DNA of 30,786 nucleotides from a virus: the IMG/VR virus record IMGVR_UViG_3300030328_003071, positions 1-30,786 of that record. One strand, written 5' to 3'. Both the position numbers and the translations under genes were made by a program. Position 1 is the first letter of the stretch. Each line of letters starts with the position of its first letter. The notes below the pieces were generated by a model, which worked only from the letters and a program-made list of their open reading frames with translations, ran no database searches and was not told the DNA's origin. This document shows positions 32-30,232 of this stretch, piece after piece.

Positions 32-607
32 TCAATCATAAACATCAAACTCCCAATCACTTTCCATATCCTCTAAATCTGGATAATAGACATTTGCATC
101 TTTTTGCACACCATGTTTCACAATCTCTTGTATTCTATGTAAATCACGATAAAATTTAATCGGCCCTAAAACAGAAGTTGGTGTAGATTCAGGGTCTTGG
201 GCTGAATAGTAGATATGGTGTGCCATCAATAAAAAATATTCTAAATCTAAACTACCTTTTTTGAAATATTTTCTTTTAAGTAAAAACCACTGTTTGTAGG
301 ACTTACCAAGTAAGAATTCACTTTCACCGTGACAAGCAATACATAGAAGATGAAAATTACTTGGTATGTTTAAACCACCATATTCTCTTCTTCTTATGTG
401 TGCGCCATGAATTTCTTCACAATCTGTCGCTCCACATGCCCAACAAGACCTATCATTAGGTAGTTCCCAATGTCTCGCAATAGCGGTCTTTTGAGGCTTA
501 CAAAAACCATAATCATCATTGTTTCTTGGTTTCTTATTAGCCGAAGGTTTTCTTTTACCGTATATGTCCTTGATTTGTTTTTTATCTAAATTTTTTCTTA
601 TAATCAT
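32..607 (-). CDS. HNH endonuclease, probably a free-standing homing enzyme
   Basis: A 191-aa protein with a complete HNH-type zinc/nuclease core: CxxC at residues 55-58, His67 and His70 (HGAH), Asn84 and CxxCH at 89-93. The N-terminal 50 residues are basic and the C-terminal 60 are acidic. It starts four bases after the stop of the DNA polymerase gene, and its ribosome binding site (GGAGGTG) lies inside the last polymerase codons. Free-standing HNH enzymes of this kind are known to invade and split conserved viral genes (for example nrdA of phage Aeh1). Since the polymerase stops early here, I infer a mobile endonuclease inserted in polB. It could instead be a domesticated nuclease. The family call is firm; the homing role is inferred. 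Confidence 0.85.
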   Translation of the reverse strand: MIIRKNLDKKQIKDIYGKRKPSANKKPRNNDDYGFCKPQKTAIARHWELPNDRSCWACGATDCEEIHGAHIRRREYGGLNIPSNFHLLCIACHGESEFLLGKSYKQWFLLKRKYFKKGSLDLEYFLLMAHHIYYSAQDPESTPTSVLGPIKFYRDLHRIQEIVKHGVQKDANVYYPDLEDMESDWEFDVYD

Positions 608-13821: not shown

Positions 13822-14033
13822 TCAATCACCGCCATAATAAATTTAAGGGGAACAAACTTTTTTCCATCGTATTCTTGAATCTTCTTTTCAGTAGAGAAGA
13901 TAACTAATTTACCTTCTAGTTCTGGTTCTATTGAACATGATAAAACTCTACCAACATTGTTTTCTTTCATCATGATGGTTCCACTACCTTGCATTTCTGC
14001 TTCTACTATAACATAATCATTTTTTGCTTTCAT
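13818..14033 (-). CDS. groS: GroES-like co-chaperonin (short)
   Basis: A 71-aa beta-rich protein: KNDYVIVEAE matches the GroES opening (xxDRVIVK), GRVLSCSIEPELEGKLVIFS the middle strands, and PLKFIMAVIE the last strand (xxxDILAVIE). It is 25 residues shorter than usual and the mobile loop that docks on GroEL is only a few residues (MQGSGTIMM). GGGGTGA lies upstream of the ATG. It should cap the chaperonin encoded immediately downstream. Confidence 0.85.
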   Translation of the reverse strand: MKAKNDYVIVEAEMQGSGTIMMKENNVGRVLSCSIEPELEGKLVIFSTEKKIQEYDGKKFVPLKFIMAVIE

Positions 14034-14578
14034 TCTTCTTCACCCCAAGATTGGACTCTTTCAAACTGAGATTCACGATAAATCGCTAATTGTTTAGGTG
14101 CGGTATTTTTCCAAAAACCGTAATGGCCTTCTCCACCCAAAACATAGGCACATTCCATATTTGTTTGCCAAATAGAAACGGTTCTAATATCTACTCCACT
14201 GAAATAAGCAGCACCAAATGGATGAGTGTGAATCCAACATCGAATAGGGAGTTTCATGCCTATTGGTGGGCTCATCCCAAACTCTACATAACCGCTTGAA
14301 CCTGTAGTAACAAAACAATTGTTTTCACCATCAATTACTACTTGAACTTCTAAATCAGGTAGTATTTCTGTTGAAGCATGCCAAATAGCATCAAAGAACC
14401 TTTTGTCTTCAAAAGCAACTTTGATATTTTCGACTTCCGATACTTTCTTAAAACAATTTAAAACATATTCTTCTGCCTCTTTTCTTGCTACATCAATCGC
14501 TTTAAATTCATCATATCCCGAATCATCAACGTCTTCGCCATAGGTTCTAATAAACCAATCTCCTGTTTTACTCATCAT
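14030..14578 (-). CDS. JAMM/MPN (JAB) metalloprotease-like protein
   Basis: A 182-aa protein with the complete zinc motif HxHPx(6)SxxD: H117, H119, P120, S127, D130 in HTHPFGAAYFSGVD, preceded by a strand rich in hydrophobics (KLPIRCWI). JAMM proteases of this family cut isopeptide bonds or process the tails of ubiquitin-like proteins. In this operon an E1-like gene and a Ubl gene with two residues after its GG lie upstream, so it is the likely Ubl processing or deconjugating enzyme. Start at the ATG after GGTGG rather than the GTG within that site. Confidence 0.88.
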   Translation of the reverse strand: MMSKTGDWFIRTYGEDVDDSGYDEFKAIDVARKEAEEYVLNCFKKVSEVENIKVAFEDKRFFDAIWHASTEILPDLEVQVVIDGENNCFVTTGSSGYVEFGMSPPIGMKLPIRCWIHTHPFGAAYFSGVDIRTVSIWQTNMECAYVLGGEGHYGFWKNTAPKQLAIYRESQFERVQSWGEEE

Positions 14579-14876
14579 TACCACCTTGTATTTTTACTAA
14601 CTTATCTTGTAGCGTTTTAATTTTACGCAATAAACGCTTCTCCTTGCGTGATTTAGGTGTGCTACTGGGTAAGACACCCTTGCGCTTTTTCACCTCATTA
14701 GAAGCCTCTAGAAGAAGCACAATTCCTTCTTCAGTTTCATCATCCCATAATTTTTCTAGCCTTCCAGCGATAGCCTTGTATGAGACACCATACCTGTGCT
14801 TCGCTTCATCTATACTTAGTTCATAGAAATTAATCAATAAATCTAAGTCTTTTTCTTTATTCCATCTTTTACCCAA
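14568..14876 (-). CDS. Small HTH (Myb/SANT-like) DNA-binding protein
   Basis: A 102-aa protein. KRWNKEKDLDLLINFY, then IDEAKHRYGVSYKAIAGRLEKLW, is a helix-turn-helix pattern like SANT/Myb or phage-type HTH. The C-terminal third is strongly basic and coiled-coil-like (KSRKEKRLLRKIKTLQDKLVKI). A regulator or DNA architectural protein is likely; the target is unknown. Confidence 0.6.
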   Translation of the reverse strand: MGKRWNKEKDLDLLINFYELSIDEAKHRYGVSYKAIAGRLEKLWDDETEEGIVLLLEASNEVKKRKGVLPSSTPKSRKEKRLLRKIKTLQDKLVKIQGGNDE

Positions 14877-14878
14877 AC

Positions 14879-15091
14879 TTAAGCCTCCAAGTGTTCACTT
14901 ACTTCCATTTTAAATTCCCATTTGTGAAAATACTCATGTCTTGCTAGAAAACCACCAGCACCATTTATTGGCCCAATATATCTAGAAGCACATATTTGGC
15001 AAAAGGCCATGACAATTCTCTCTTCATAAACTGAACCATCTTTGGTTTCTATATCTACGATTTCTCCGATTTCTTTTTCTGTATATCTCAT
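14879..15091 (-). CDS. Small C2H2-like zinc-finger protein
   Basis: A 70-aa protein with CQICASRYIGPINGAGGFLARHEYFH, a CxxC ... HxxxxH zinc-finger pattern with a longer finger loop than classic C2H2. An acidic C-terminus follows. The ATG overlaps the end of the E1-like gene region; a GTG nine bases upstream is a possible alternative start. Confidence 0.65.
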   Translation of the reverse strand: MRYTEKEIGEIVDIETKDGSVYEERIVMAFCQICASRYIGPINGAGGFLARHEYFHKWEFKMEVSEHLEA

Positions 15092-15096
15092 ATTAA

Positions 15097-15660
15097 TCAC
15101 ATATTGATAACGGCATATTCTTTGACCTGTTCATCATTAAACCATCTTTGAACCCACTGTGCGCCTAATCCTGCTATGGCTACTTGCATGAAATGAACTC
15201 CTTCTGTAGAACCATCCCATGAATCTCCTTGACAACTGAATGAACCTTCTTCTCCTGCCAATAATGTATCATACATTTTTGGGTCGGCTTTGTAACTAAC
15301 AAGAGCAGCATTTCTACCTTGAGCCCTCAAATCAAGCCATTTAACAGTAGTGTTATACAAAGTTCTTCTAAGGCCAATATTATCTACACAACAAATAACT
15401 AAGTCATATCCTTGCATTTGTTTTTCAGTTAGAATAGGAAATTGAATTGCCTTATTTATTGAATCACTATAATTATCAGCCATATTGGTTGCTTTGTTTT
15501 GACCAACACTAACAATTTTAAAATTCTGGTAAGGTAAATTCTTTGTTTCAACCTTATCGGGGTCGGCTACTGTAATATCATACAAACGAACCCTATCTAA
15601 TACAGGAATAAGGAAACTCCCTATCCCTCCTGCTCCAATTACTAATATTTTTCTTTTCAT
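15097..15660 (-). CDS. E1-like (ThiF/MoeB/HesA) Ubl-activating enzyme
   Basis: A 187-aa adenylation domain: nucleotide loop GAGGIGS at residues 9-15, acidic ribose-binding stretch D33-P-D35 with E38 and N41 (DxDxVExxNL), VGQNKA at 52-57, and the Mg/ATP aspartate in CCVDN (D93) followed by R98-R99. A candidate catalytic Cys is C143 in GSFSCQG. Family members adenylate the C-terminal glycine of a ubiquitin-like partner. It is shorter than MoeB/ThiF (about 240-250 aa) and has no C-terminal zinc CxxC pairs, as in compact phage versions. GGAGG lies upstream of the ATG. The Ubl at 18903-19109 and the JAMM at 14030-14578 are the expected partners. Confidence 0.92.
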   Translation of the reverse strand: MKRKILVIGAGGIGSFLIPVLDRVRLYDITVADPDKVETKNLPYQNFKIVSVGQNKATNMADNYSDSINKAIQFPILTEKQMQGYDLVICCVDNIGLRRTLYNTTVKWLDLRAQGRNAALVSYKADPKMYDTLLAGEEGSFSCQGDSWDGSTEGVHFMQVAIAGLGAQWVQRWFNDEQVKEYAVINM

Positions 15661-19164: not shown

Positions 19165-19305
19165 CTCTATTTGGGGCGTTGCTATTGCTATTAGCCATCC
19201 TAGCCCTGTAACTAATAGCACCATTACTAAAATAGAAACTGTGAACATCCACAGACCCTTTCCTACTTTATTCAAAATCTCTAGCGTTATATCTAAATCT
19301 TTCAT
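19162..19305 (-). CDS. Small membrane protein, 47 aa
   Basis: ATG with GGAGGGAG just upstream. A polar N-terminal helix (KDLDITLEILNKVGKG) is followed by one membrane span (WMFTVSILVMVLLVTGLGWLI). It overlaps the end of the 428-aa gene by about 38 bases, which is unusual here, but the ribosome binding site is strong. Function unknown. Confidence 0.6.
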   Translation of the reverse strand: MKDLDITLEILNKVGKGLWMFTVSILVMVLLVTGLGWLIAIATPQIE

Positions 19306-20554
19306 TTTCTCCCTCCTCTTCTAATATTTGTTCTGCCTCAAACCTAGTCTTAGCAACTACATTATATTTGAGCAATAATTGTTTTTGTTTTTCTGTTGGT
19401 GGTAATTCTACGACATTTTTTAGATTTCTTAAATACCCCGCAAGATTATCTCTCTTTAATGAGGCCTTTCTCTTAAAAGAGGCCACGTCTCTATATTCTG
19501 AAGTGGTTTCACAAACCCTATCAGTAAGAACTGGTAGTCCTAAAAAGTGACAATTGTTTTCATATTCCTCATTGAATGGTAATTCCATTGTCTCTTTATG
19601 CCGTATTCTTTCCTTTTCCAATCTTTCTTGGCGTTCTTTTTCTGCTCTTTGCCTTCTTTCGTCTAGAAGCCGTTCTCTTTCTTCTTGTTCTAATCTTCTT
19701 TTCTCTACGTTTTCTGGAAGATTCCAAATCCTTTCTCTCTCGGCTTGTTTTCTCCTTCTACGTTCCATTCTCTCTTCTTGTTCGATGCGAGCCTTTTCCC
19801 TACTTTCTGTGATATAGGCCTTTCTTTCTTCCCTTTCCTTTTTCCACTCGTTGAAAGAAGGGATAAGAGATTCGCTCATAACATAAAGATATGCTAAATC
19901 TTTCATCAAATTATCATTAGGATAGCCATGAACTCTAAGTTGATTCTTAGGATTATCGGGATGGTTCCATCTCCAAACAATTGAAGCCATTTTGTAAGAA
20001 GGGGTAGCAAAGGTTCCTTTGCCTTTCTTTCTAATTACTCTTTTTTGTTCATAACGATTAAGGGAATTGATATGGACGTATTCCTTTTTGTGAGTATTAT
20101 ACCAACAGTCTAATTCTTTTATTTTATTGAACATCATTTCAAATGATTCGCCGTTTTCAGCCCACCATGCTTCTGCTTTCATAGAACCAACTCTGACTTT
20201 AATCCATTCAGCAACTTGCTCATCAGTAACTTCACCAATGAGAAGTCCCTTCTCTTCTGCAATTTGCCGCATAATAAGATAACTATTGATATGGTCACTA
20301 CCCACTACTTCTTCTACACCATTTTGTGTATTCCTAATACGGAAATGATAAACAATAGGATGACCACAAAGACATTGTAAAGCGTGATTAGTTTGAAGAA
20401 CCCAAGAAGGCATATCTCCATTACCACTCCACCAAACATCTCCGGTGGCTATCCACTCTTCTTTAGCATCATCATAATTATCAGCAACAGAAAGTTCTGT
20501 CATTTTTCTTATGAGGATTTTATCCCATCGGCCTTCGCCTAATTGTCTTCTCAT
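19268..20554 (-). CDS. 428-aa zinc-site protein with long charged coiled coil
   Basis: Residues about 55-95 carry NHALQCLCGHPIVYHFRIRN and EEVVGSDHINSYL, a CxCGH ... GSxxI pattern common to small phage proteins that bind zinc. Residues about 240-335 are an almost uninterrupted run of Glu/Arg/Lys (ERMERRRRKQAERERIW and similar), a single-helix or coiled-coil segment. The C-terminus is helical. GGTGA precedes the ATG. Role unknown; a scaffold that positions a zinc domain is a guess. Confidence 0.6.
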   Translation of the reverse strand: MRRQLGEGRWDKILIRKMTELSVADNYDDAKEEWIATGDVWWSGNGDMPSWVLQTNHALQCLCGHPIVYHFRIRNTQNGVEEVVGSDHINSYLIMRQIAEEKGLLIGEVTDEQVAEWIKVRVGSMKAEAWWAENGESFEMMFNKIKELDCWYNTHKKEYVHINSLNRYEQKRVIRKKGKGTFATPSYKMASIVWRWNHPDNPKNQLRVHGYPNDNLMKDLAYLYVMSESLIPSFNEWKKEREERKAYITESREKARIEQEERMERRRRKQAERERIWNLPENVEKRRLEQEERERLLDERRQRAEKERQERLEKERIRHKETMELPFNEEYENNCHFLGLPVLTDRVCETTSEYRDVASFKRKASLKRDNLAGYLRNLKNVVELPPTEKQKQLLLKYNVVAKTRFEAEQILEEEGENERFRYNARDFE

Positions 20555-22335: not shown

Positions 22336-23769
22336 TTAGTTACCTCCGATTTTACTTGGTTTTGGGCCAATATAGAACAAGTTCTTTTTGGCTCTAGTTA
22401 TTGCTACATAACAGATATTATTTTCTTCAAGACCGCCTTTTGGATGAGGCATTCTTTCTGTTGCTAGAAGGTAGACATTGTTTGCTTCAAGACCTTTAGC
22501 CTTGTGAACAGTTGAAAGCATAATCTCTCCTTTATCGTTTCCATCAAATACTCTTTTTATTTCTTCAATGATTCCACCAACGGTAGTTGCCTTTTCTACA
22601 AAAATCATAATACAATCTTTCTTATCTTCAAGAGCAAATGCTTGATTCATTTTATCATTCTTTACTAATTTAGCATAGTTGAATTCAAAATCTTGCATGA
22701 ACAATTGTTTGAATTCATCTACACCCATATTGTTATTTTTACTAATTTTCTTAACGGCTTTGATTAAACCTTTAGTCATATCTCGACCTAGAATATATGC
22801 TGATTTACCTGCACTGACTAAATCATAGAAAGCACCAACTAGAGGCGCATTATATCTACAAAGAACCATGTCTTGAGGTTGTGGATTAAAGTGAGCGTTT
22901 ACAAAAACTGCTCCTTCATTAGCGGTAGGTGGGCAAGTAAACTCTTTGACATATCTATTTGCTTCTTTTACAACTTCTTTAGGGCATCTCCATGAAATAC
23001 TTAGAGGTAATTGAGTAATATCTCTAGCACTTAATTCCAACCTTTCAACGAATTTACCAATTGAATTACTATCAGCACCTCTAAATCCATAGATGGCTTG
23101 ATTTTTATCACCAACGATAATACATCGACCACCGTTTACTACACGGATAATTAATTCTCTTTGTATTTCATTGAAGTCTTGTGCTTCATCAACAAATACT
23201 ACATCATAATGAGGTAGTGGATATTCGTTGATAATTGGTAGCCAAATCATATCATCAAAATCAATATGATGAGTTTGGGTTCTACATAGTGTGAGAATAG
23301 CAGGAATTGACATAATAGCCTGTTCTTCCTCTCTGTAAGATTCAAAGGTAATGTTATACTCATCAATCAATTTACGAATTGATGAAACATCTTTACCATC
23401 TGTTAAACTGCCTTTTACTAGACTTACGAGTTTAGTAATTGGTGCGGTATAACAATCTTTGCCCATCAATTCTTGCACGATTTGGTGGCATTTTCTGTTG
23501 TTTACTTTTGTTCTAATTCCAGCATTTCTAATTGCTGCAAATCCGAAAGCATGGAATGTTTTTGCCTCTACATTATCTGGTAGTCTAACAGTCAATTCTT
23601 GTTGAATTGATTTGTTAAATGCAAGAAAGGCCGCTTGACAAGATAGAAGTTTTGATGCTTCTACAATTGTTGTTGTTTTGCCTGTCCCTGCACCTGCATT
23701 TATCACTACATGGTTTTCGGTATTTTCTATTGCTTCGTATATTTTTATTTGTTCATCTGTTGGGTTCAT
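22336..23769 (-). CDS. UvrD/PcrA-like superfamily 1 DNA helicase
   Basis: A 477-aa protein with SF1 motifs in order: Q-motif/start (NPTDEQ), Walker A AGAGTGKTTT from residue 25, motif Ia (LAFNKSIQ), motif II VFVDEAQDFN, motif III IVGDKNQAIYGFRGA, motif IV region WRCPKEV, motif V STVHKAKGLEANNVYLL and motif VI YVAITRAKKNLFYIG. It is compact, with short 1B/2B domains, like phage and mitochondrial-type UvrD relatives. The start is the Met after GGAGAAATAATA; the frame stays open about 140 bases further upstream, but that part is low complexity and folds as hairpins. No replicative MCM helicase is visible in the window, so this enzyme may serve replication or recombination. Confidence 0.95.
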   Translation of the reverse strand: MNPTDEQIKIYEAIENTENHVVINAGAGTGKTTTIVEASKLLSCQAAFLAFNKSIQQELTVRLPDNVEAKTFHAFGFAAIRNAGIRTKVNNRKCHQIVQELMGKDCYTAPITKLVSLVKGSLTDGKDVSSIRKLIDEYNITFESYREEEQAIMSIPAILTLCRTQTHHIDFDDMIWLPIINEYPLPHYDVVFVDEAQDFNEIQRELIIRVVNGGRCIIVGDKNQAIYGFRGADSNSIGKFVERLELSARDITQLPLSISWRCPKEVVKEANRYVKEFTCPPTANEGAVFVNAHFNPQPQDMVLCRYNAPLVGAFYDLVSAGKSAYILGRDMTKGLIKAVKKISKNNNMGVDEFKQLFMQDFEFNYAKLVKNDKMNQAFALEDKKDCIMIFVEKATTVGGIIEEIKRVFDGNDKGEIMLSTVHKAKGLEANNVYLLATERMPHPKGGLEENNICYVAITRAKKNLFYIGPKPSKIGGN

Positions 23770-23799
23770 TATTATTTCTCCATTATTATTATTATTGTG

Positions 23800-24035
23800 G
23801 GAATAGGAGGAGAGAGAGGGGAGTTGACAATAATAATACCTCTCTCTCCATGAATAGGTGGGGGAAGGAAACAATCTATTGGGAGTTGAAGTCAATAGAT
23901 TATACTTCATTTGTTGCGCCAGTTTCGCTTCGCCCCGTAATTATATGACCTAATTGACAACCAATTAAGTCATATCAACCGATGCCTCCTCGGAGACACC
24001 GACTCAAAGGCGAACCCCTCGGATGGTATATAGGC
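23800..24035 (-). promoter_or_regulatory. Structured non-coding leader upstream of the helicase gene
   Basis: Three stable inverted repeats in a row: GGAGAGAGAGG / CCTCTCTCTCC (23809-23819 and 23839-23849, perfect 11 bp), AATCTATTG / CAATAGATT (23873-23881 and 23893-23901, perfect 9 bp) and ATATGAC-TAATTG / CAATTA-GTCATAT (23943-23975, one mismatch). A TATATA box at about 24028-24033 could be the minus-strand promoter. The first hairpin is 40 bases before the helicase ATG. Two GGGAGTTGA words lie beside the first two hairpins. The rest of the stretch to 24069 holds no gene I can support. Confidence 0.55.
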
Positions 24036-24424: not shown

Positions 24425-24868
24425 TTACAAGGAATCTATCCCGCCATCCCAAACGCCATCTTTGAACATCTTGGCCAATGAGTTTCTAGTTTTCTTAACC
24501 ACTGATTTAGCATAATCTTCCGCATCTTCGTAAGGTTTTCCGCCCCTACCGACAGTAATCTTGCTAATCAATTCATGACTGTTAAAATAGGCTATGGCCG
24601 ATTCTTCTACAAGTCCACATGCTTTGTCAATATTCATTCTTACTGAAGTTGGGACTGAAGATTTCTTTCCTTTTCTAAAAGGAGTTCCATCACGGCCTCT
24701 CAATAATGCCTTCAATGCATTCTTAGCCGCTACTCTTTCACTAGGATTATTTTCACCAATTTGTAAGTTAAGCACAATTACTTGCTTCAACCCTTCTTCC
24801 AGAGAGTTATCTGCTTCTAGATATTCATTAACTTCTATTACTAGACTATTCCATTCGTTATCATCCAT
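24425..24868 (-). CDS. GRGG-family paralogue A, unknown function
   Basis: A 147-aa helical protein. It shares the plan of the two plus-strand proteins at 25930-26433 and 27429-27944: start (D/E)(D/E/N)xW(N/I)xxV, a central GRDGTPFRKGKKSS (others: ARKGRESS), a GRGGKPYEDAEDYA (others: GRTGG) and an ending DGVWDG (others NRWDG). Being outside the cassette array and on the other strand, it is probably the older copy. It is the first gene of the minus block and has a TATA-like promoter. Confidence 0.65.
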   Translation of the reverse strand: MDDNEWNSLVIEVNEYLEADNSLEEGLKQVIVLNLQIGENNPSERVAAKNALKALLRGRDGTPFRKGKKSSVPTSVRMNIDKACGLVEESAIAYFNSHELISKITVGRGGKPYEDAEDYAKSVVKKTRNSLAKMFKDGVWDGGIDSL

Positions 24869-24979: not shown

Positions 24980-25335
24980 CATCTCGCCATCTGTCTCAAC
25001 GTGAGACGAATACTTTTCATAAAAAAACCGCCCTACTGCGAGCCTGTAATTCTGAAAAAAATACGTCTCATCTCATCTCATCCATCTCAGATAATACTCT
25101 CTCTCAGAGAATCCTCTCTCCTAGCATAATACAGGGGTAGTAGTAGTATGAATGAATGAATGAATGAGATATGAGATATATGAGATAGATAAATAATAAA
25201 CTATACCTACGGTATCAAAAACGCCCTTTTTCTCTGGAAATACGTCTCATCTCATTCCTGTTTTTTCATGAGATGAATTGGAAATTCTATATTATATTAT
25301 TATAGGGATATAAAATACAATATTTTAATTGAGAT
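24980..25335. other. Candidate replication origin: AT-rich TCTCA/TGAGA repeat cluster
   Basis: No gene can be supported between 24869 and 25530. Within it, about 14 copies of TCTCA or its complement TGAGA occur in 350 bp, in short tandem runs (CGTCTCATCTCATCTCATC; ATGAGATATGAGATATATGA) and as inverted pairs (CATCTCAT ... ATGAGATG around 25248-25276; GTCTCAACGTGAGAC at 24991-25005). An ATGA tetranucleotide run is at 25148-25168 and a very AT-rich stretch follows at 25285-25335. It lies where gene direction diverges. Repeats plus an AT-rich unwinding-like segment fit an origin or a large regulatory hub. Confidence 0.45.
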
Positions 25336-25461
25336 ACACATAACGGTCAATTGAAATACATTCTGCTTTAGATGTTACAGAGAGAGAAAAGAATATTTTA
25401 CTAAAAAATAAGGTTTGTTTAAGTATATAATAACCAAAACCCTTTGTTTAGTGAATGTATT

Positions 25462-25502
25462 ACCATATGGTTCGGACTCTTTGTTCCTCTCTTGAGCGAA
25501 CC
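25462..25502. repeat. CCATATGG element R1
   Basis: ACCATATGGT core, then a hairpin GGTTCG ... CGAACC with CTTTG in its loop. The left CAAAG arm is not clear. Lies 61 bases before the next ATG. Confidence 0.8.
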
Positions 25503-25530
25503 TTAACTATACTATATTTCCCCAATAGGT

Positions 25531-25779
25531 ATGAAAGCAAGACTAACAAGTGACTTATTCAAGGATGAATATGCAAAATTGACAATAAACACATGCCTAG
25601 ATATGATGAACCATATGCAGCAGATTCTCAAGTTCACGAACAAGTTGGGCTTGGAATGGAGTCTCTCCGCATCCAACTACAGGAAGAATGGAGCAACACT
25701 CACCGTTACTGGAGAAAACCTAATACCAAACCTCGACAGAATTAGAGAATACATCTTAAGGAATGGTTGGGGCAAATAA
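25531..25779 (+). CDS. Cassette gene 1, small hypothetical protein
   Basis: An 82-aa alpha/beta protein (KARLTSDLFKDEYAKLTINT, NGATLTVTGENLIPNLDRIR). No family recognised. First gene of the rightward array, with an AT-rich box (ACTATACTATATTT) 12-25 bases upstream and no strong ribosome binding site. Bounded by R1 and R2. Confidence 0.65.
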   Translation: MKARLTSDLFKDEYAKLTINTCLDMMNHMQQILKFTNKLGLEWSLSASNYRKNGATLTVTGENLIPNLDRIREYILRNGWGK

Positions 25780-25809
25780 CTGTCCCAACCAGCCTTATGG
25801 CCATAAAAT

Positions 25810-25860
25810 CAAAGTAAGACCATATGGTTGTAATCGCTTTGCGCTTGTTTAATTACAACC
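25810..25860. repeat. CCATATGG element R2
   Basis: CAAAG, core ACCATATGGT, then a perfect 9-bp hairpin GGTTGTAAT / ATTACAACC whose loop holds CTTTG. A second hairpin (CCAAATGCT-CCCCC / GGGGG ... AGCATTGG, 25867-25911) follows just before the next ribosome binding site. Confidence 0.85.
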
Positions 25861-25929
25861 CTAATACCAAATGCTCCCCCCAGTATTGCTTCGGGGGTAT
25901 TGAAGCATTGGCTCATAGGAGTTGATAAT

Positions 25930-26433
25930 ATGAAGGAAGAAAATTGGATAACAAATGTAAACAGAGTAGCATTATGGCTTGAAGCCGAAGATAGAGGACA
26001 AGCAGGGCAAGCGATTTCCCTGTCTATTACTCTAGGAAATGATTGTGGCAGCGACGAAATGCGTTCAACATACTGGACCGCTATACGCTCAATTGGGGGT
26101 AATTATGACGACTTCCCTTTGGCCCGAAAAGGTCGAGAATCGTCTTTGTCTCCAGAAATGCAAATGGCGGTAGATGGTGTTGTTTCTGCGGTAGAGTCTG
26201 CTTTTGCGGATATTACTAACGCTGAACTAATTACCACAGTAATTCACCCACATGGTCGAACTGGTGGCGGATATGATTCAATTGCTGACTTGGCTGCTGA
26301 TTATGCCAACAAGGCAAAACAGAATCTAGTAAAGGCCGTCAAAGACAACCGTTGGGATGGAACCATGAATGGTAATATCCCAGTGATGACCCCACCTCCT
26401 CTAAAGGAGAAAACGGAGGCCCAAAAAGAGTGA
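25930..26433 (+). CDS. Cassette gene 2, GRGG-family paralogue B
   Basis: A 167-aa protein, start at the ATG after GGAGTTGA. Residues DEMRSTYWTAIRSIGGNYDD and ARKGRESSLS are nearly identical to paralogue C (27429-27944); HPHGRTGGGY and DNRWDG complete the family signature. The C-terminal 25 residues are Pro/Thr/Lys-rich and acidic. Predicted mostly helical; no catalytic motif I can name. Bounded by R2 and R3. Confidence 0.75.
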   Translation: MKEENWITNVNRVALWLEAEDRGQAGQAISLSITLGNDCGSDEMRSTYWTAIRSIGGNYDDFPLARKGRESSLSPEMQMAVDGVVSAVESAFADITNAELITTVIHPHGRTGGGYDSIADLAADYANKAKQNLVKAVKDNRWDGTMNGNIPVMTPPPLKEKTEAQKE

Positions 26434-26469
26434 TGTGCAACAATACCCCCGTTGCGCCTCTTTAGGGTC

Positions 26470-26514
26470 GTTCGCAAAGCGAACTACCATATGGTTGTGC
26501 TTTGTCATTTAACC
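26470..26514. repeat. CCATATGG element R3
   Basis: Perfect hairpin GTTCGC-AAA-GCGAAC, core TACCATATGGTT, then GGTT ... AACC with GCTTTG between. It sits between convergent genes, so it is downstream of both. Confidence 0.85.
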
Positions 26515-26530
26515 CCGAAGGGAAAACCAA

Positions 26531-26866
26531 TTAGGTTTTTACTGCCCCTCTCCACATAATTGTGAATGCTTTGGCATATACATCCTTATTTTCATCAGAT
26601 TTGTTATACAAATCTCTAGCAAATTCTAGGGATGCTCTCAATTTCTCATCCTCTATATCATCCATAACGGCATTATTCACAATCCACTCAGCAGTTGCAG
26701 GTTCCACATATTTTTCTTCTTCTTCTTCTTCAGTTGTTCCAGTTACACAGTAGCCACATTTTACAGTGACGGTAATTTCAGTAGCATCATGTTCATGCTC
26801 GGAATGATACATTCCATAAGTCACATAATTTCCACAATCTACACATTCTGCTTCTCTCCATGTCAT
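26531..26866 (-). CDS. Cassette gene 3 (reversed), zinc-ribbon protein
   Basis: A 111-aa protein with CVDCGNYV at residues 8-15 and CGYC at about 37-40, a HSEHEH stretch between them, a Glu run (EEEEEE) and a helical C-terminus. It is the only clear minus-strand gene in the array, lying between R3 and R4. No ribosome binding site; GTATATC just before the ATG. Function unknown. Confidence 0.75.
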   Translation of the reverse strand: MTWREAECVDCGNYVTYGMYHSEHEHDATEITVTVKCGYCVTGTTEEEEEEKYVEPATAEWIVNNAVMDDIEDEKLRASLEFARDLYNKSDENKDVYAKAFTIMWRGAVKT

Positions 26867-26913
26867 GATATACGGTTAAACCAACTACCTATAGGGTAGA
26901 CGTTCCGTTTACT

Positions 26914-26951
26914 CAAAGTTATCCTACCATATGGTATTGCTTTGGAATACC
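26914..26951. repeat. CCATATGG element R4
   Basis: CAAAG, core ACCATATGGT and a hairpin GGTATT-GCTTTGG-AATACC (perfect 6-bp stem). Lies between divergent genes. Confidence 0.85.
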
Positions 26952-26981
26952 TTATCATATACTTAATTATAAGTTAATAGT

Positions 26982-27278
26982 ATGAGAAAAATAACGGCTG
27001 ACGCATGCGAAGCATTTGAAAATGCATGGAACTTCAAAAAAAGCAATACCGAAGTGATAAGATATAATTCTCTAAATGTAGATATGAGATTATTCGGTAA
27101 TTTGATAGCATACAGTGACCCAACTGGGACATATATTTCAAATGGTGGCGTACCAATGACAAACACAACAAAAGAAAGATTAAACGGCTTAACGGGCGTT
27201 AACATCTATCAAACGAACTTTCAAGTGTTTTTGAATAATGAGGCTTGGGACGGCGATTGGATTAAAATCGCAGACTAA
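26982..27278 (+). CDS. Cassette gene 4, marine-phage conserved small protein
   Basis: A 98-aa protein of a type I recognise from marine cyanophages and related phages: MRKITADACEAFENAWNFKK at the start, then NTTKERLNGLTGVNIYQ, then a C-terminal WDGDWI. Function unknown. A TATACTTAA box centred about 22 bases upstream with no ribosome binding site suggests a leaderless archaeal transcript. Bounded by R4 and R5. Confidence 0.8.
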   Translation: MRKITADACEAFENAWNFKKSNTEVIRYNSLNVDMRLFGNLIAYSDPTGTYISNGGVPMTNTTKERLNGLTGVNIYQTNFQVFLNNEAWDGDWIKIAD

Positions 27279-27301
27279 AGAGGATATTCCTCGCCCTTCG
27301 G

Positions 27302-27345
27302 GGTTGATACCAAAGTTATCAACCATATGGTTGGCTTTGTTAACC
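27302..27345. repeat. CCATATGG element R5
   Basis: Perfect 8-bp hairpin GGTTGATA / TATCAACC with CAAAG in its loop, sharing its last bases with the core CCATATGG, then GGTT-GGCTTTGTT-AACC. The clearest double-hairpin copy. Confidence 0.9.
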
Positions 27346-27428
27346 TTACAGATATATCAAATAGGCAACTCTCTTATGCTTCAAAGGAGTAACAAACAAG
27401 ACACAACCCAAAACAGGAGTTGAAAAAT

Positions 27429-27944
27429 ATGAAAATAGAAAATTGGAATGTAAATGCAAACAAGGTTAGAGTTTGGGCAGAAGCCCAAGATGAAGAAGAC
27501 CCTCAAGTTAAAGCGATTATGCTTTCTCTTGGATTAGGAGACTCTGCACCTAATGATGAGATGAGAAGTACCTATTGGACCGCAATTCGTTCAATCGGCG
27601 GTAACATGGATGGTTTTCCATCTGCCCGCAAAGGAAGAGAATCTTCATTATCAGACGAGCAACAAATTGTTGTCGATGGTGTAGAGCAAGCCGTTATGAA
27701 TGTTTTTGCGGGAATCCCTACTGAATCTCACGACTTACTACTTTCCGTAATTGTTCCTCACGGTAGGACTGGCGGCGTATATGCTGATTGGTCTGCTCTG
27801 GTCAATTCAATGAAGAAAAACGCACACAACTACATGTTGAAATCCATTAAGGAAAACCGATGGGATGGTTTGGCACTAGAAGATGGTGTTCCACAAATCA
27901 CCCCTACCCCCACAAAGGCCGATGAGGTGGCCGACGAAGCGTGA
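27429..27944 (+). CDS. Cassette gene 5, GRGG-family paralogue C
   Basis: A 171-aa protein starting at the ATG after GGAGTTGA, the same ribosome binding context as paralogue B. Shares DEMRSTYWTAIRSIGGNMDG, ARKGRESSLS, VPHGRTGG and ENRWDG with it, but synonymous sites and the N- and C-termini have diverged, so the duplication is not recent. Acidic tail (KADEVADEA). Function unknown. Bounded by R5 and R6. Confidence 0.75.
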   Translation: MKIENWNVNANKVRVWAEAQDEEDPQVKAIMLSLGLGDSAPNDEMRSTYWTAIRSIGGNMDGFPSARKGRESSLSDEQQIVVDGVEQAVMNVFAGIPTESHDLLLSVIVPHGRTGGVYADWSALVNSMKKNAHNYMLKSIKENRWDGLALEDGVPQITPTPTKADEVADEA

Positions 27945-27986
27945 TTGAGTTTGTTACTCCTTTGTTGCGCCTTTGCGCTTCATTGG

Positions 27987-28029
27987 GGTAAAGCAAAGCA
28001 TTACCATATGGTAAGAATGCTTTGCATTC
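27987..28029. repeat. CCATATGG element R6
   Basis: GGTAA-AGCAAAGCA-TTACC overlapping the core, then hairpin GAATGC-TTT-GCATTC. Together the arms form one long imperfect palindrome from GCAAAGCATT to AATGCTTTGC around CATATG. Confidence 0.9.
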
Positions 28030-28073
28030 GCACCCTAAGTACCAAAACCTACTGGCCTTATTGTGGTGAAACG

Positions 28074-28775
28074 ATGCCAATAACGTATGTAAGAACGATG
28101 AAAATAAAATATGCTAGAAGTAAGATACCCGATTTAGAAATGGCTAAATTATGTGAAACTCTACAACATAGAGGTTTGAATGTAGTAGATTGGGGAATTG
28201 GTGATGAGATTACTCATTATGGAAAGATAACAAGTACAAAAGAAACAAAAATTTACACTATAGTAAATAGCCGAAACAAAGTAGTCTTTGGAGACAAATT
28301 TATGTCAATTAGAGACGACGTATTTAATCAAATTTCAAAAGTGTATAAGGTATCTAAGTCATCTTATGTTGATACAGTCACTAGAACCGAATGGGTTGAC
28401 CCCGTTGGCCAGAGATTAAGTTTGAAAGATTCTGATGCCATGATTAAAACAGACTATCATCGCAATTATGCTTATCATAATGATGTTAATATGACAGTAC
28501 ATTATTTCAACACCTATAATGGAATTGGAATTGTTTTTGAAATTACTTGGGTAGCCGACAAAATACAAAGAAAGGAAGCCATTGAACAAATGGTCGTTAA
28601 CACCCCTTTACGTGATATGGGTAGAATACAATCTATCTTTGAAGGTGCTTTAGCGCACTATACCGAGGTTGATGAGCATCCGGTGATTGATTGTCACTTT
28701 GATGCTAAAACTGAAAGCCGTAGCGAATGCACTCCAGATGTAATTAAACTTGTTAGGGAGGCCAGAAACCGATGA
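28074..28775 (+). CDS. Cassette gene 6a, hypothetical protein
   Basis: A 233-aa alpha/beta protein, start at the ATG seven bases after GGTGA; an open frame upstream runs through R6 and is unlikely to be coding. Segments such as SKIPDLEMAKLCETLQHRGL, YSIV-like strands and GIGIVFEITWVADKIQRKEA are regular but match no family I know. It is followed by two small genes with an ATGA overlap, so this cassette holds an operon. Confidence 0.7.
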   Translation: MPITYVRTMKIKYARSKIPDLEMAKLCETLQHRGLNVVDWGIGDEITHYGKITSTKETKIYTIVNSRNKVVFGDKFMSIRDDVFNQISKVYKVSKSSYVDTVTRTEWVDPVGQRLSLKDSDAMIKTDYHRNYAYHNDVNMTVHYFNTYNGIGIVFEITWVADKIQRKEAIEQMVVNTPLRDMGRIQSIFEGALAHYTEVDEHPVIDCHFDAKTESRSECTPDVIKLVREARNR

Positions 28776-28915
28776 CCTACAAGGTAATTAGATTTCGCTT
28801 TAGCGGAACAAATCGAGTAATCAAAAGAGGCTTATCGCTTGAAGAAGCACAAGCCCATTGTAGAAGAGATGATACAAGAGGAGATGGTTGGTTTGACGGA
28901 TATGCAGAAGAATAA
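28772..28915 (+). CDS. Cassette gene 6b, marine-phage conserved small protein (47 aa)
   Basis: MTYKVIRFRFSG, then RVIKRGLSLEEAQAHCRRDD and a GWFDGYAEE ending: a small protein seen in many marine phages and bacteria, beta-hairpin plus helix, function unknown. Its ATG overlaps the previous stop. It takes precedence over a longer frame starting at 28839. Confidence 0.85.
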   Translation: MTYKVIRFRFSGTNRVIKRGLSLEEAQAHCRRDDTRGDGWFDGYAEE

Positions 28916-28916
28916 A

Positions 28917-29033
28917 ATGGTTTACGCAGAATACATAACAAAACAATGTGGAGAATTCAATCACAAGTTTGAATTAAAATCTTGTGTTATTTGTAAGGAG
29001 AGAAATGATGGGATTAATGCAGCCACAGTTTAA
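28917..29033 (+). CDS. Cassette gene 6c, 38-aa zinc peptide
   Basis: Starts at the ATG two bases after the previous stop. CGEFNHKF and SCVICKER give a CxxxxH...CxxC zinc-knuckle-like site. The frame is open further upstream, but that part overlaps the conserved 47-aa gene. Function unknown. Confidence 0.6.
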   Translation: MVYAEYITKQCGEFNHKFELKSCVICKERNDGINAATV

Positions 29034-29071
29034 GGATTTTTTCCTTAAGCCCCGTAAGTCCTATATGGCAG

Positions 29072-29121
29072 GGTAATGCAAAGCATTACCATATGGTGTG
29101 GCTTTGTTATGAACTTTCACC
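29072..29121. repeat. CCATATGG element R7
   Basis: Perfect 8-bp hairpin GGTAATGC-AAA-GCATTACC fused to the core, then GGTG ... CACC with GGCTTTG between. Preceded by a small AAGGA/TCCTT hairpin at the end of the previous cassette. Confidence 0.9.
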
Positions 29122-29151
29122 CCGATATAATACCTAAAGGAACGGATTAGC

Positions 29152-29631
29152 ATGGAGGATAATATTACCGTAAATAATGAGAGCGAATCATACAGTAGCA
29201 TAATATTGCATGTATGTAGGACAGGAAAGAAAGAACAATACTATACCTTGTATCAAGAGAGCCTAGTGGTTAGAAAATATATGTATAACCACAATTGCCA
29301 CTATGTGAAAAATTTAGCCCATACAAAGGAAAAGGCTATGGCAAAGGCAGAGGTGGAAAAAGCCCAATTTGTGGCATGTAATTTTTGGCATACTGTTGAG
29401 ATACAATACCATGAGTCTCCAAGAATGGTTTATGAGAAAATGACCGCTTTTGGCACTGAATTCAAAACGTCCAGAAAAGGAACTACGATGTGGGCATATG
29501 CAACACCAGAGTTTTGGGAGAATTGGAAAACAAGCAAGCAAGAAATCAAAGACGCTGGCTTTTGGGTCAAGAAGTTTGATGATGGTTGGAGAGTATTTGT
29601 CAGGAGAGATGCTGAGTTCGACCATCGTTGA
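29152..29631 (+). CDS. Cassette gene 7, phage-type small protein fusion
   Basis: A 159-aa protein. The first half contains HVCRTGKKEQYYTLYQES and HYVKNLAHTKEKAMAKAE, a short motif known in marine phage proteins; the second half (TAFGTEFKTSRKG, FWENWKTSKQEIKDAGFWVK) is an aromatic-rich module. Function unknown. Ribosome binding site AAGGAA. A hairpin AAAACCG / CGGTTTT follows the stop. Confidence 0.7.
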   Translation: MEDNITVNNESESYSSIILHVCRTGKKEQYYTLYQESLVVRKYMYNHNCHYVKNLAHTKEKAMAKAEVEKAQFVACNFWHTVEIQYHESPRMVYEKMTAFGTEFKTSRKGTTMWAYATPEFWENWKTSKQEIKDAGFWVKKFDDGWRVFVRRDAEFDHR

Positions 29632-29642
29632 AATGGCTGCAA

Positions 29643-29661
29643 AAAACCGTATATCGGTTTT
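29643..29661 (+). terminator. Hairpin terminator-like site
   Basis: AAAACCG-TATAT-CGGTTTT, 7-bp stem with a T-run on its 3' side, 12 bases after the stop of the 159-aa gene. Placement and T-tract favour a transcription end. Confidence 0.5.
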
Positions 29662-29671
29662 CCTCGTTTGA

Positions 29672-29710
29672 GGTTTATCGGACAAAGCCGAACCATATGG
29701 TTTTGGCTTA
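29672..29710. repeat. CCATATGG element R8
   Basis: GGTT-TAT-CGG / CCG-AACC hairpin with ACAAAG in the loop, fused to core ACCATATGGT, then TTTGGCTTAG (CTTTG arm degraded to CTTAG). Confidence 0.8.
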
Positions 29711-29863
29711 GTTAATAAGTATCAATTAGCACTCATGCTCTTATTTATGTTATCCATCATAAGTCCTCGTAATTGAACTTTTAACAGTTGCGTAAAGCGT
29801 TCTATAGAAAATTACATCTTCATATGAGAACGGAGCCTATGTCTCTAATTGATACTTATTAAC
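29711..29863. repeat. Perfect 19-bp inverted repeat enclosing 115 non-coding bases
   Basis: GTTAATAAGTATCAATTAG at 29711-29729 is the exact reverse complement of 29845-29863. No supported gene lies inside. It fills the unit between R8 and R9. It could be a stem of a non-coding RNA, a small mobile element without a transposase, or a protein-binding site. Confidence 0.8.
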
Positions 29864-29880
29864 AATAGTTTCTCAATAAC

Positions 29881-29899
29881 ACAACCATATGGCTTTGTT
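29881..29899. repeat. CCATATGG element R9 (terminal, degenerate)
   Basis: Core ACCATATGG directly followed by CTTTG. No left CAAAG arm and no clear left hairpin; it is the last copy of the array. Confidence 0.75.
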
Positions 29900-29975
29900 T
29901 TCTAAAATTTTTATTTGTTAACATTTAAACAAACTGGCTTTAAATGTGGTACTTTTGACCTCCGATGGGCTTATA

Positions 29976-30007: not shown

Positions 30008-30232
30008 ATGTCGGCAGAGCAACAAGCCTTACAATATTTAAATGAGATATTCAAAGATATTAAAGAAACTTTACAAGAAGTTCAAAAGAATAAAAGGGAT
30101 GCTCGTCAATTAACTGAACAAGAAGAGGCCGTACTGAAGAATATAGTAGGCAAAATTAAACAAGTTAGAAGCAATTTAAATGATTACTTAAAGTCTTTTA
30201 GAGTTCAAACTAGACTTGATGAATTTAATTAA
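30008..30232 (+). CDS. Small coiled-coil protein
   Basis: A 74-aa, almost entirely helical and charged protein (YLNEIFKDIKETLQEVQKNK, then LKNIVGKIKQVRSNLNDYLK). It has the length and heptad look of small phage scaffolding or regulatory proteins, but no family is recognised. Confidence 0.7.
   Translation: MSAEQQALQYLNEIFKDIKETLQEVQKNKRDARQLTEQEEAVLKNIVGKIKQVRSNLNDYLKSFRVQTRLDEFN

Follow-up and report, generated by a model that had tools for sequence, protein, structure and literature searches.

Integron-style cassette platforms, named for the integrons with their integrase IntI and their sites attI and attC, are known from bacteria and also occur in some archaeal genomes, and to our knowledge none has been described from viruses of archaea. 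Here we consider an array of nine palindromic elements, each centred on the octamer CCATATGG, in the virus record IMGVR_UViG_3300030328_003071, the full 30,786 bases of which are referred to below as the window. As in integrons, short cassettes are arranged head to tail and the fold of the site is kept rather than the sequence of its stem; one end is a distinct, attI-like anchor, here an outward-facing half-site called Z (CCATATGGCTTTG) with a conserved flank; and cassettes are gained, lost and reordered as site-bounded units. Unlike in integrons, no integrase of the integron type was detected (PF00589 in 0 of 40 related records), a host-encoded enzyme being possible; attC is one imperfect hairpin with R and L boxes of the GTTRRRY type, whereas here CCATATGG lies between two separate hairpins; and the cassettes here stand in both orientations and in virus genomes, whereas integrons reside in bacterial chromosomes and plasmids. 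The array works like an integron but is set apart from one by two defining features, the integrase and the attC architecture.

Three other described systems share part of this layout. In the promoter early stem-loop (PeSL) cassettes of T4-type phages, recombination has reportedly been proposed as a by-product of transcription signals. There, too, a large tailed virus has its accessory genes set apart by repeated stem-loops at which recombination points lie, but PeSLs are directional promoter-terminator elements, whereas the present elements have like halves before and after a gene, showed no promoter consensus and undergo exchange within the 8-bp core. PeSL cassettes are mentioned in PMC5931544. 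The repetitive extragenic palindromes (REPs) and bacterial interspersed mosaic elements (BIMEs), with the transposase RAYT (TnpA-REP), likewise place paired inverted hairpins between genes; in these, conserved stems sit between ordinary genes of the chromosome, whereas here the stems vary, loop and core are fixed and the genes move, and the Y1 transposase that belongs to them was not found here (PF01797 in 0 of 40 records). Shufflons and invertases of the Hin/Gin type also use repeated short sites that permit inversion and reordering. No serine or tyrosine invertase was detected here, however, the sites are perfect palindromes with fold-conserved hairpins, and foreign cassettes are gained and lost in addition to being inverted.

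Exact copies of CCATATGG stand at 25463, 25820, 26487, 26927, 27323, 28004, 29089, 29693 and 29885 and, the window being the entire record, nowhere else in it, against an expectation of 0.27 copies and a maximum of 2 among 100 shuffles. Both the nine positions and their confinement to the array are as a first-pass annotation, made from the letters of the window, had read them. Its count of seven or eight copies of the full form, CAAAG..ACCATATGGT..CTTTG, has to be lowered to six (R2 to R7), as R1 is without a CAAAG half on its outer side, the right half of R8 lacks CTTTG, and in R9 CTTTG comes immediately after GG. The copy-specific stems it had described beside the core are evident in R7, R2 and R5, and over many viruses pairing within halves is far above chance. 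The elements gave no match in Rfam. From left to right they are:

R1, 25461..25502, core 25463-25470: array end far from the anchor; left (outer) half without a CAAAG hairpin, right half GGTTCG..CTTTG..CGAACC
R2, 25810..25860, core 25820-25827: left half with CAAAG and a weak stem, right half GGTTGTAAT..CTTTG..ATTACAACC
R3, 26466..26514, core 26487-26494: hairpins on both sides
R4, 26895..26951, core 26927-26934: two hairpins, GGTAG/CTACC and GGTATT/AATACC
R5, 27302..27345, core 27323-27330: hairpins GGTTGAT..CAAAG..ATCAACC on the left, and GGTT/AACC
R6, 27987..28034, core 28004-28011: hairpins on both sides
R7, 29072..29121, core 29089-29096: left GGTAATG-CAAAG-CATTACC, right GGTG/CACC
R8, 29672..29702, core 29693-29700: hairpin on the left only; the right half is of the type without CTTTG
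R9, 29885..29917: anchor (Z) end, CCATATGG-CTTTG, stemless, then an AT-rich T-run (CTAAAATTTTTATTT)

The stem of R2 covaries across homologous cassettes, and the arrangement of R9, usually in the form CAAATTTTTTATTT, is repeated in about 40 other arrays at their Z ends.

When related arrays (cited by L numbers) are compared in pairs, cassettes are seen to be gained, lost and replaced, with a translocation in L068/L079, inverted blocks in L032/L085 and L112/L118, and homology that ends at the core in L088/L119, L040/L102 and L091/L120. L234 and L243 have a colinear flank that is 93% identical over 10.1 kb, and their arrays of 23 and 22 elements are scrambled, by translocation and by inversion of several cassettes; in L182, L190 and L192, with flanks 94-96% identical, cassette order is altered. 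Stable order is found among the nearest relatives too, L123 having the order of the window at 91-100%. Content, order and orientation of the cassettes thus differ between relatives, with breaks at the core, which is the movement that the first-pass annotation had anticipated.

The position of the exchange can be narrowed further. Of 125 homology ends inside arrays (identity 80% or more), 31 fall no farther than 15 bp from a core, where 5.4% would be expected by interpolation. Among 310 pairs of homologous arms at 85% or more, 89 are switched, that is, homologous on one side and unrelated on the other; switched junctions with homology up to the core number 72, from 30 locus pairs. On their switched side these 72 share 1.54 bases past the octamer, compared with 1.36 for random pairs of elements, and the base adjoining the octamer moves with its half; for these two reasons the comparison places the exchange inside CCATATGG, with no longer homology used. 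Misassembly is an unlikely source of such junctions, because the shared stretch is shorter than the usual assembly words and the junctions recur in independent samples.

The fold of the sites was analyzed in 484 non-redundant elements, on 664 halves, with 3' arms re-dealt among the halves as the null. Each half has its own hairpin, GGTnnn and nnnACC, with CTTTG in the loop region. The mean perfect stem is 4.02 against 2.97 +/- 0.03 after re-dealing (664 halves; z about 35), 132 stems, against about 17, are 6 bp or longer, the base pair beside CTTTG covaries as well (z 9.6), and 51 compensatory stem positions are found between homologous cassettes. Across the core, between the two halves of one element, no covariation was seen (3.46 vs 3.59 +/- 0.06). 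From the covariation within halves and its absence across the core we infer that the fold is under selection, as two independent hairpins flanking the core; the earlier suggestion that compensating stems mark selected structure is in this respect well borne out. The lack of covariation across the core rules out a single hairpin pairing the left arm of the whole palindrome with the right arm. Extended kissing of the CAAAG and CTTTG loops was also set aside, the flanking bases matching across the core at most weakly (largest excess 0.467 vs 0.410).

Which strand folds is indicated by the mismatches. On the CTTTG strand, which reads away from the core, G.T mismatches in the stem are near expectation (0.87 and 0.80) and A.C mismatches are depleted (0.51 and 0.57), the pattern being the same whether the half begins or ends a gene and whichever way it points with respect to Z, and Watson-Crick pairing is 1.77 times the expectation in gene-start halves and 1.74 times in gene-end halves. 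The constraint tracks the core and not the gene, and fits DNA folding on the strand that has its 5' end at the core. A role in mRNA is disfavoured, because gene-end halves would then show the opposite pattern of G.T and A.C mismatches. Transcription from the core both ways is a formal possibility, and the equal constraint at gene ends speaks against it.

Half-sites fall into three types: H, with the CTTTG hairpin; Z, with GG directly followed by CTTTG; and '-', without CTTTG. The Z half is almost confined to one end of the array, where it faces outward and is followed by the conserved flank similar to CAAATTTTTTATTT, and at the opposite, plain end the outward half is usually '-'. The two ends of one cassette match in type (odds ratio 51, p=4e-48), and the two sides of one core do so far less (odds ratio 3.4). 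The median length is 639 bp in H/H cassettes, which usually hold one gene, and 151 bp in '-/-' units. A cassette extends from core to core, containing one or few genes and a half-site at either end. Halves at gene starts and gene ends share one consensus with no directional bias, genes within arrays point either way (89 toward Z, 67 away), and the site is without detectable polarity with respect to gene direction. Some relatives have up to 23 elements, mostly with CTTTG-less halves (e.g. L213, L234, L243), and a few of these halves, a minority, form stems around other loops (GCGTTAGC, CTTTCG, CTTTTG), which may point to additional site subtypes. Cassettes of 80-130 bp were also seen that hold only a Shine-Dalgarno-like AGGAGGG and an Asp/Glu-rich micro-open reading frame of about 6-11 residues, such as MFFDDDE, MYDDED or VDEDEEEEQE (L032:7601-8371, L053:3388-3582, L085:4106-5382, L066:1009-1231, L118:1459-1575, L028:8362), some of them inverted between relatives.

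A search of IMG/VR with the element pattern matched at least 119 stretches of viral contigs. All of the 50 whole records tested contain CCATATGG, at 3-22 copies per record, compared with 0-2 for a reversed-pattern control, and the octamer is rare outside arrays, as the first-pass annotation had supposed; a count of CCATATGG outside arrays in the fetched loci was dropped as circular, the array being defined by the motif. Selection on the element was avoided by gathering loci with an unrelated core gene, c8 (window 19268-20554; 80 loci; protein families are cited by c numbers). Elements are present in every c8-located locus with at least 7 kb of sequence upstream of c8, in that upstream stretch, and most c8 loci without elements start near c8. 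In these loci the palindromic octamer between CAAAG and CTTTG is CCATATGG in 139 of 139 cases. The arrays lie between two divergent, outward-reading core modules, in a constant place across relatives.

In cellular genomes (85,000 species, 257 billion bases) only 32 stretches match, nearly all of them single chance-like matches, so the element belongs to the viruses. One of the 32, L129 (NZTP01000027.1, a metagenome-assembled genome, MAG, of Altibacter sp.), has a typical full array with homologues of c1, c3, c6 and c25, and is most likely a misbinned virus; another, L128 (JAEHCK010000120.1, a Thermoplasmata MAG), has one element with two H halves beside genes without a match to magrovirus families, and is possibly due to chance. 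The 184733-base record IMGVR_UViG_3300021958_000021 holds two arrays about 94 kb apart (L121 and L175) with different cassettes, and is seemingly a contig in which the genomes of two related viruses have been joined. Named phage records gave no relatives of the array or of c1. No report of the element or of magrovirus repeats was found in the literature, of which the magrovirus papers were partly covered, so an earlier notice is possible.

We read the nine elements as symmetric recombination sites of a viral gene-cassette array, and give this reading, which is built on sequence comparison, a probability of roughly 0.6. That there is a cassette array recombining at CCATATGG we regard as very probable; that a dedicated site-specific mechanism uses folded DNA to this end seems to us rather probable. 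The first-pass annotation had described a cassette array bounded by structured, recombination-like sites, integron-like in logic, and this is supported: of the findings it named as contrary to it, namely a fixed gene order without cassette movement, stems that fail to covary and frequent CCATATGG elsewhere, none was made. Considering the mechanism, a nuclease or recombinase of the virus or its host might act at the symmetric core, guided by the hairpins on the strand running 5' to 3' away from it, in single-stranded or extruded DNA. A palindromic cut at the core followed by religation would then give freedom of orientation, the cassette rejoining either way because the core is a palindrome, and the variable stems would be retained solely for their fold. 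The outcome would be a stock of accessory genes open to exchange, with the logic of an integron. Whether this amounts to an undescribed class of site-specific recombination, in which a candidate viral or host enzyme recognises paired 5'-strand CTTTG hairpins and cuts and rejoins inside CCATATGG without regard to orientation, throughout marine magrovirus-like viruses, we consider an even question. In every examined member of this marine virus group the array sits at the same place, and exchange in it has been mapped to eight bases. If correct, the proposal explains the turnover of accessory genes in these viruses alongside a colinear core, and predicts that an enzyme of a kind not yet recognised cuts the core, a defined substrate, and could perhaps serve as a tool for rearranging DNA; the ecology of the cassettes becomes testable in existing long-read metagenomes.

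Several observations weigh against this interpretation. The evidence is comparative throughout. The CTTTG hairpin is missing in 515 of 1545 half-sites, a third, and hence is not always needed. In 34 of the 89 switched junctions the half-hairpins are less than 80% alike, and therefore some exchange or divergence took place at the hairpin itself. An encoded recombinase, for which the first-pass annotation had proposed to look, was sought and none was detected in 40 relatives, some of these records being possibly incomplete: tyrosine recombinase (PF00589), serine recombinase (PF00239) and Y1-HUH transposase (PF01797) each gave 0 of 40, their positive controls matching in 14, 10 and 5 of 14, respectively. 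Neither Hjc nor a clear Rad51 was found in 33 records, with one sub-threshold match to the latter; a search for endonuclease VII was uninformative, its controls giving no match. The International Committee on Taxonomy of Viruses (ICTV) profile of the Apasviridae (order Magrovirales) states that an integrase is absent, and for a related family the text names PD-(D/E)XK and restriction-like nucleases (PMC12999244). The remaining candidates are an uncharacterised viral protein, a virus-encoded nuclease together with ligase, or a host enzyme. Window 32-607 has a weak match to HNH endonucleases (PF14279, E=0.006, under the curated cut-off), a candidate core nuclease.

The failure to detect a known site-specific recombinase in the viruses raises the alternative that there is no dedicated enzyme at all, and that general homologous recombination, annealing or replication template switching takes place at short shared sequences during co-infection, with hairpins that stall the polymerase or serve otherwise. 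The viruses do encode a helicase, PolB and ligase, and the elements do have the 8-bp core and the CAAAG/CTTTG blocks in common. However, exchange driven by homology should favour longer tracts, whereas the junctions share no more past the octamer than random pairs do (1.54 vs 1.36); a homology of 8-10 bp is very short; the octamer stays invariant in variable surroundings; and inversions are frequent. We think this explanation unlikely, though worth keeping in mind.

Explanations that give the elements another primary function fare less well. They might be mainly transcription or RNA signals (a bidirectional promoter, processing site or terminator), with recombination as a by-product, considering their intergenic position, the T-run after the Z end, the hairpins folding on the strand that leads outward from the core, and a TFIIB-like zinc-ribbon protein in the window that makes virus-specific promoters conceivable. 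Yet halves at gene starts and gene ends share a consensus and are under equal pairing constraint (1.77, 1.74), at gene ends the strand under constraint is the antisense one, genes point both ways (89 toward and 67 away from Z) and ordinary elements have no T-run inside. The operator and RNA-processing alternatives raised by the first-pass annotation fit less well because gene-start and gene-end halves are alike and the constrained strand follows the core and not the gene, and we hold a signal function of this kind to be improbable. Still slightly less probable is that the cassettes are non-autonomous transposons with hairpin ends, mobilised by a transposase in trans as in REP/BIME and RAYT, and inserting into existing elements. 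The cassette ends are indeed inverted and hairpin-bearing, an element consists of two inverted hairpins as in BIMEs, and a 4-bp ATAT lies between the hairpins; but no Y1 transposase was detected in 40 records, head-to-tail cassettes share one core with none seen to carry its own core at a new site, and varying stems with fixed loops and core are the opposite of REPs.

Turning to what the sites of the window enclose, the array consists of seven units that contain genes, one in reverse orientation, and a single non-coding unit. The first-pass annotation was correct in assigning one gene or short operon to each gene unit and in finding one unit reversed (26531-26866); for the unit between R8 and R9 it was right about an inverted repeat without a gene, and the repeat is perfect over 17 bp. 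The units and the flanking genes are:

Cassette 1, 25531..25779, + strand: family c37, 82 aa, function not known
Cassette 2, 25930..26433, + strand: family c1, helical protein
Cassette 3, 26531..26866, - strand: c27, 111 aa, in the opposite orientation
Cassette 4, 26982..27278, + strand: c3, Kyanoviridae Gp96 family PF23790, E=1e-13
Cassette 5, 27429..27944, + strand: family c1
Cassette 6, 28074..29033, + strand: short operon, c6 (28074-28775) and c26 (open reading frame 28839-29033)
Cassette 7, 29152..29631, + strand: c19, 159 aa
Unit 8, 29701..29884: non-coding, inverted repeat TTAATAAGTATCAATTA / TAATTGATACTTATTAA at 29712-29728 / 29846-29862
UvrD-like helicase (c7), 22336..23910, - strand: core module on the plain side
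Core gene outside the plain end, 24425..24868, - strand: c1 paralogue, outward-reading, position kept in relatives
First gene past the anchor end (c25), 30008..30232, + strand: outward-reading

The function of most cassette genes is not known. In L117 a c37 cassette stands inverted with respect to its array. Family c1, the commonest among the cassettes and with a paralogue fixed just outside the plain end, is predicted to have an all-helical fold (predicted local distance difference test, pLDDT, 93); the model has no significant match in the PDB, and the sequence has weak matches only, to unnamed viral proteins. On these grounds there is no evidence for c1 as the recombinase. The conserved neighbour c8 (model pLDDT 87.5) also had no PDB match. 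The Gp96 relative in cassette 4 links the array to cyanophages (Kyanoviridae), which suggests that viruses of archaea and viruses of cyanobacteria may have cassette genes in common. Beside the anchor end of many arrays (those of the window, L029, L092, L104, L067, L060 and L124) there is a short non-coding unit of about 200 bp with inverted repeats, the sequence of which differs between viruses while the layout is constant; such units are possibly a structured RNA or a feature of an origin.

The window encodes PolB, an ATP-dependent ligase, a clamp loader, a group I-like chaperonin and the UvrD-like helicase, as well as a pyrimidine-dimer-glycosylase-like protein and the TFIIB-like zinc ribbon. 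The best named matches of PolB are the Halorubrum tailed viruses HF1/HF2/HRTV, at 25% identity. Related records reach 92-97 kb, and in them the modules flanking the array read outward. The ICTV describes the Magrovirales as related to Druskaviridae, with replication and morphogenesis modules that run oppositely (PMC12999244); the traits compared were those of a tailed archaeal virus of 90-110 kb with its own replisome and these oppositely directed modules. Because of the HF1/HF2/HRTV-like PolB and this description, we believe that the virus is probably a magrovirus, a tailed virus of the Poseidoniales archaea that are abundant in the ocean. The archaeal small primase PF01896 was searched for and not found, and there was no match to any named magrovirus record. 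Adjacent open reading frames at window 14030-15660 have a weak JAB-like match (E=0.009) and a clear ThiF-like match (E=1e-15), reminiscent of ubiquitin-like conjugation modules. Lastly, the cumulative GC skew has its minimum at the array (window about 25000-27000), between the two outward-reading modules, and the region of the array may be a divergent promoter or replication origin region.

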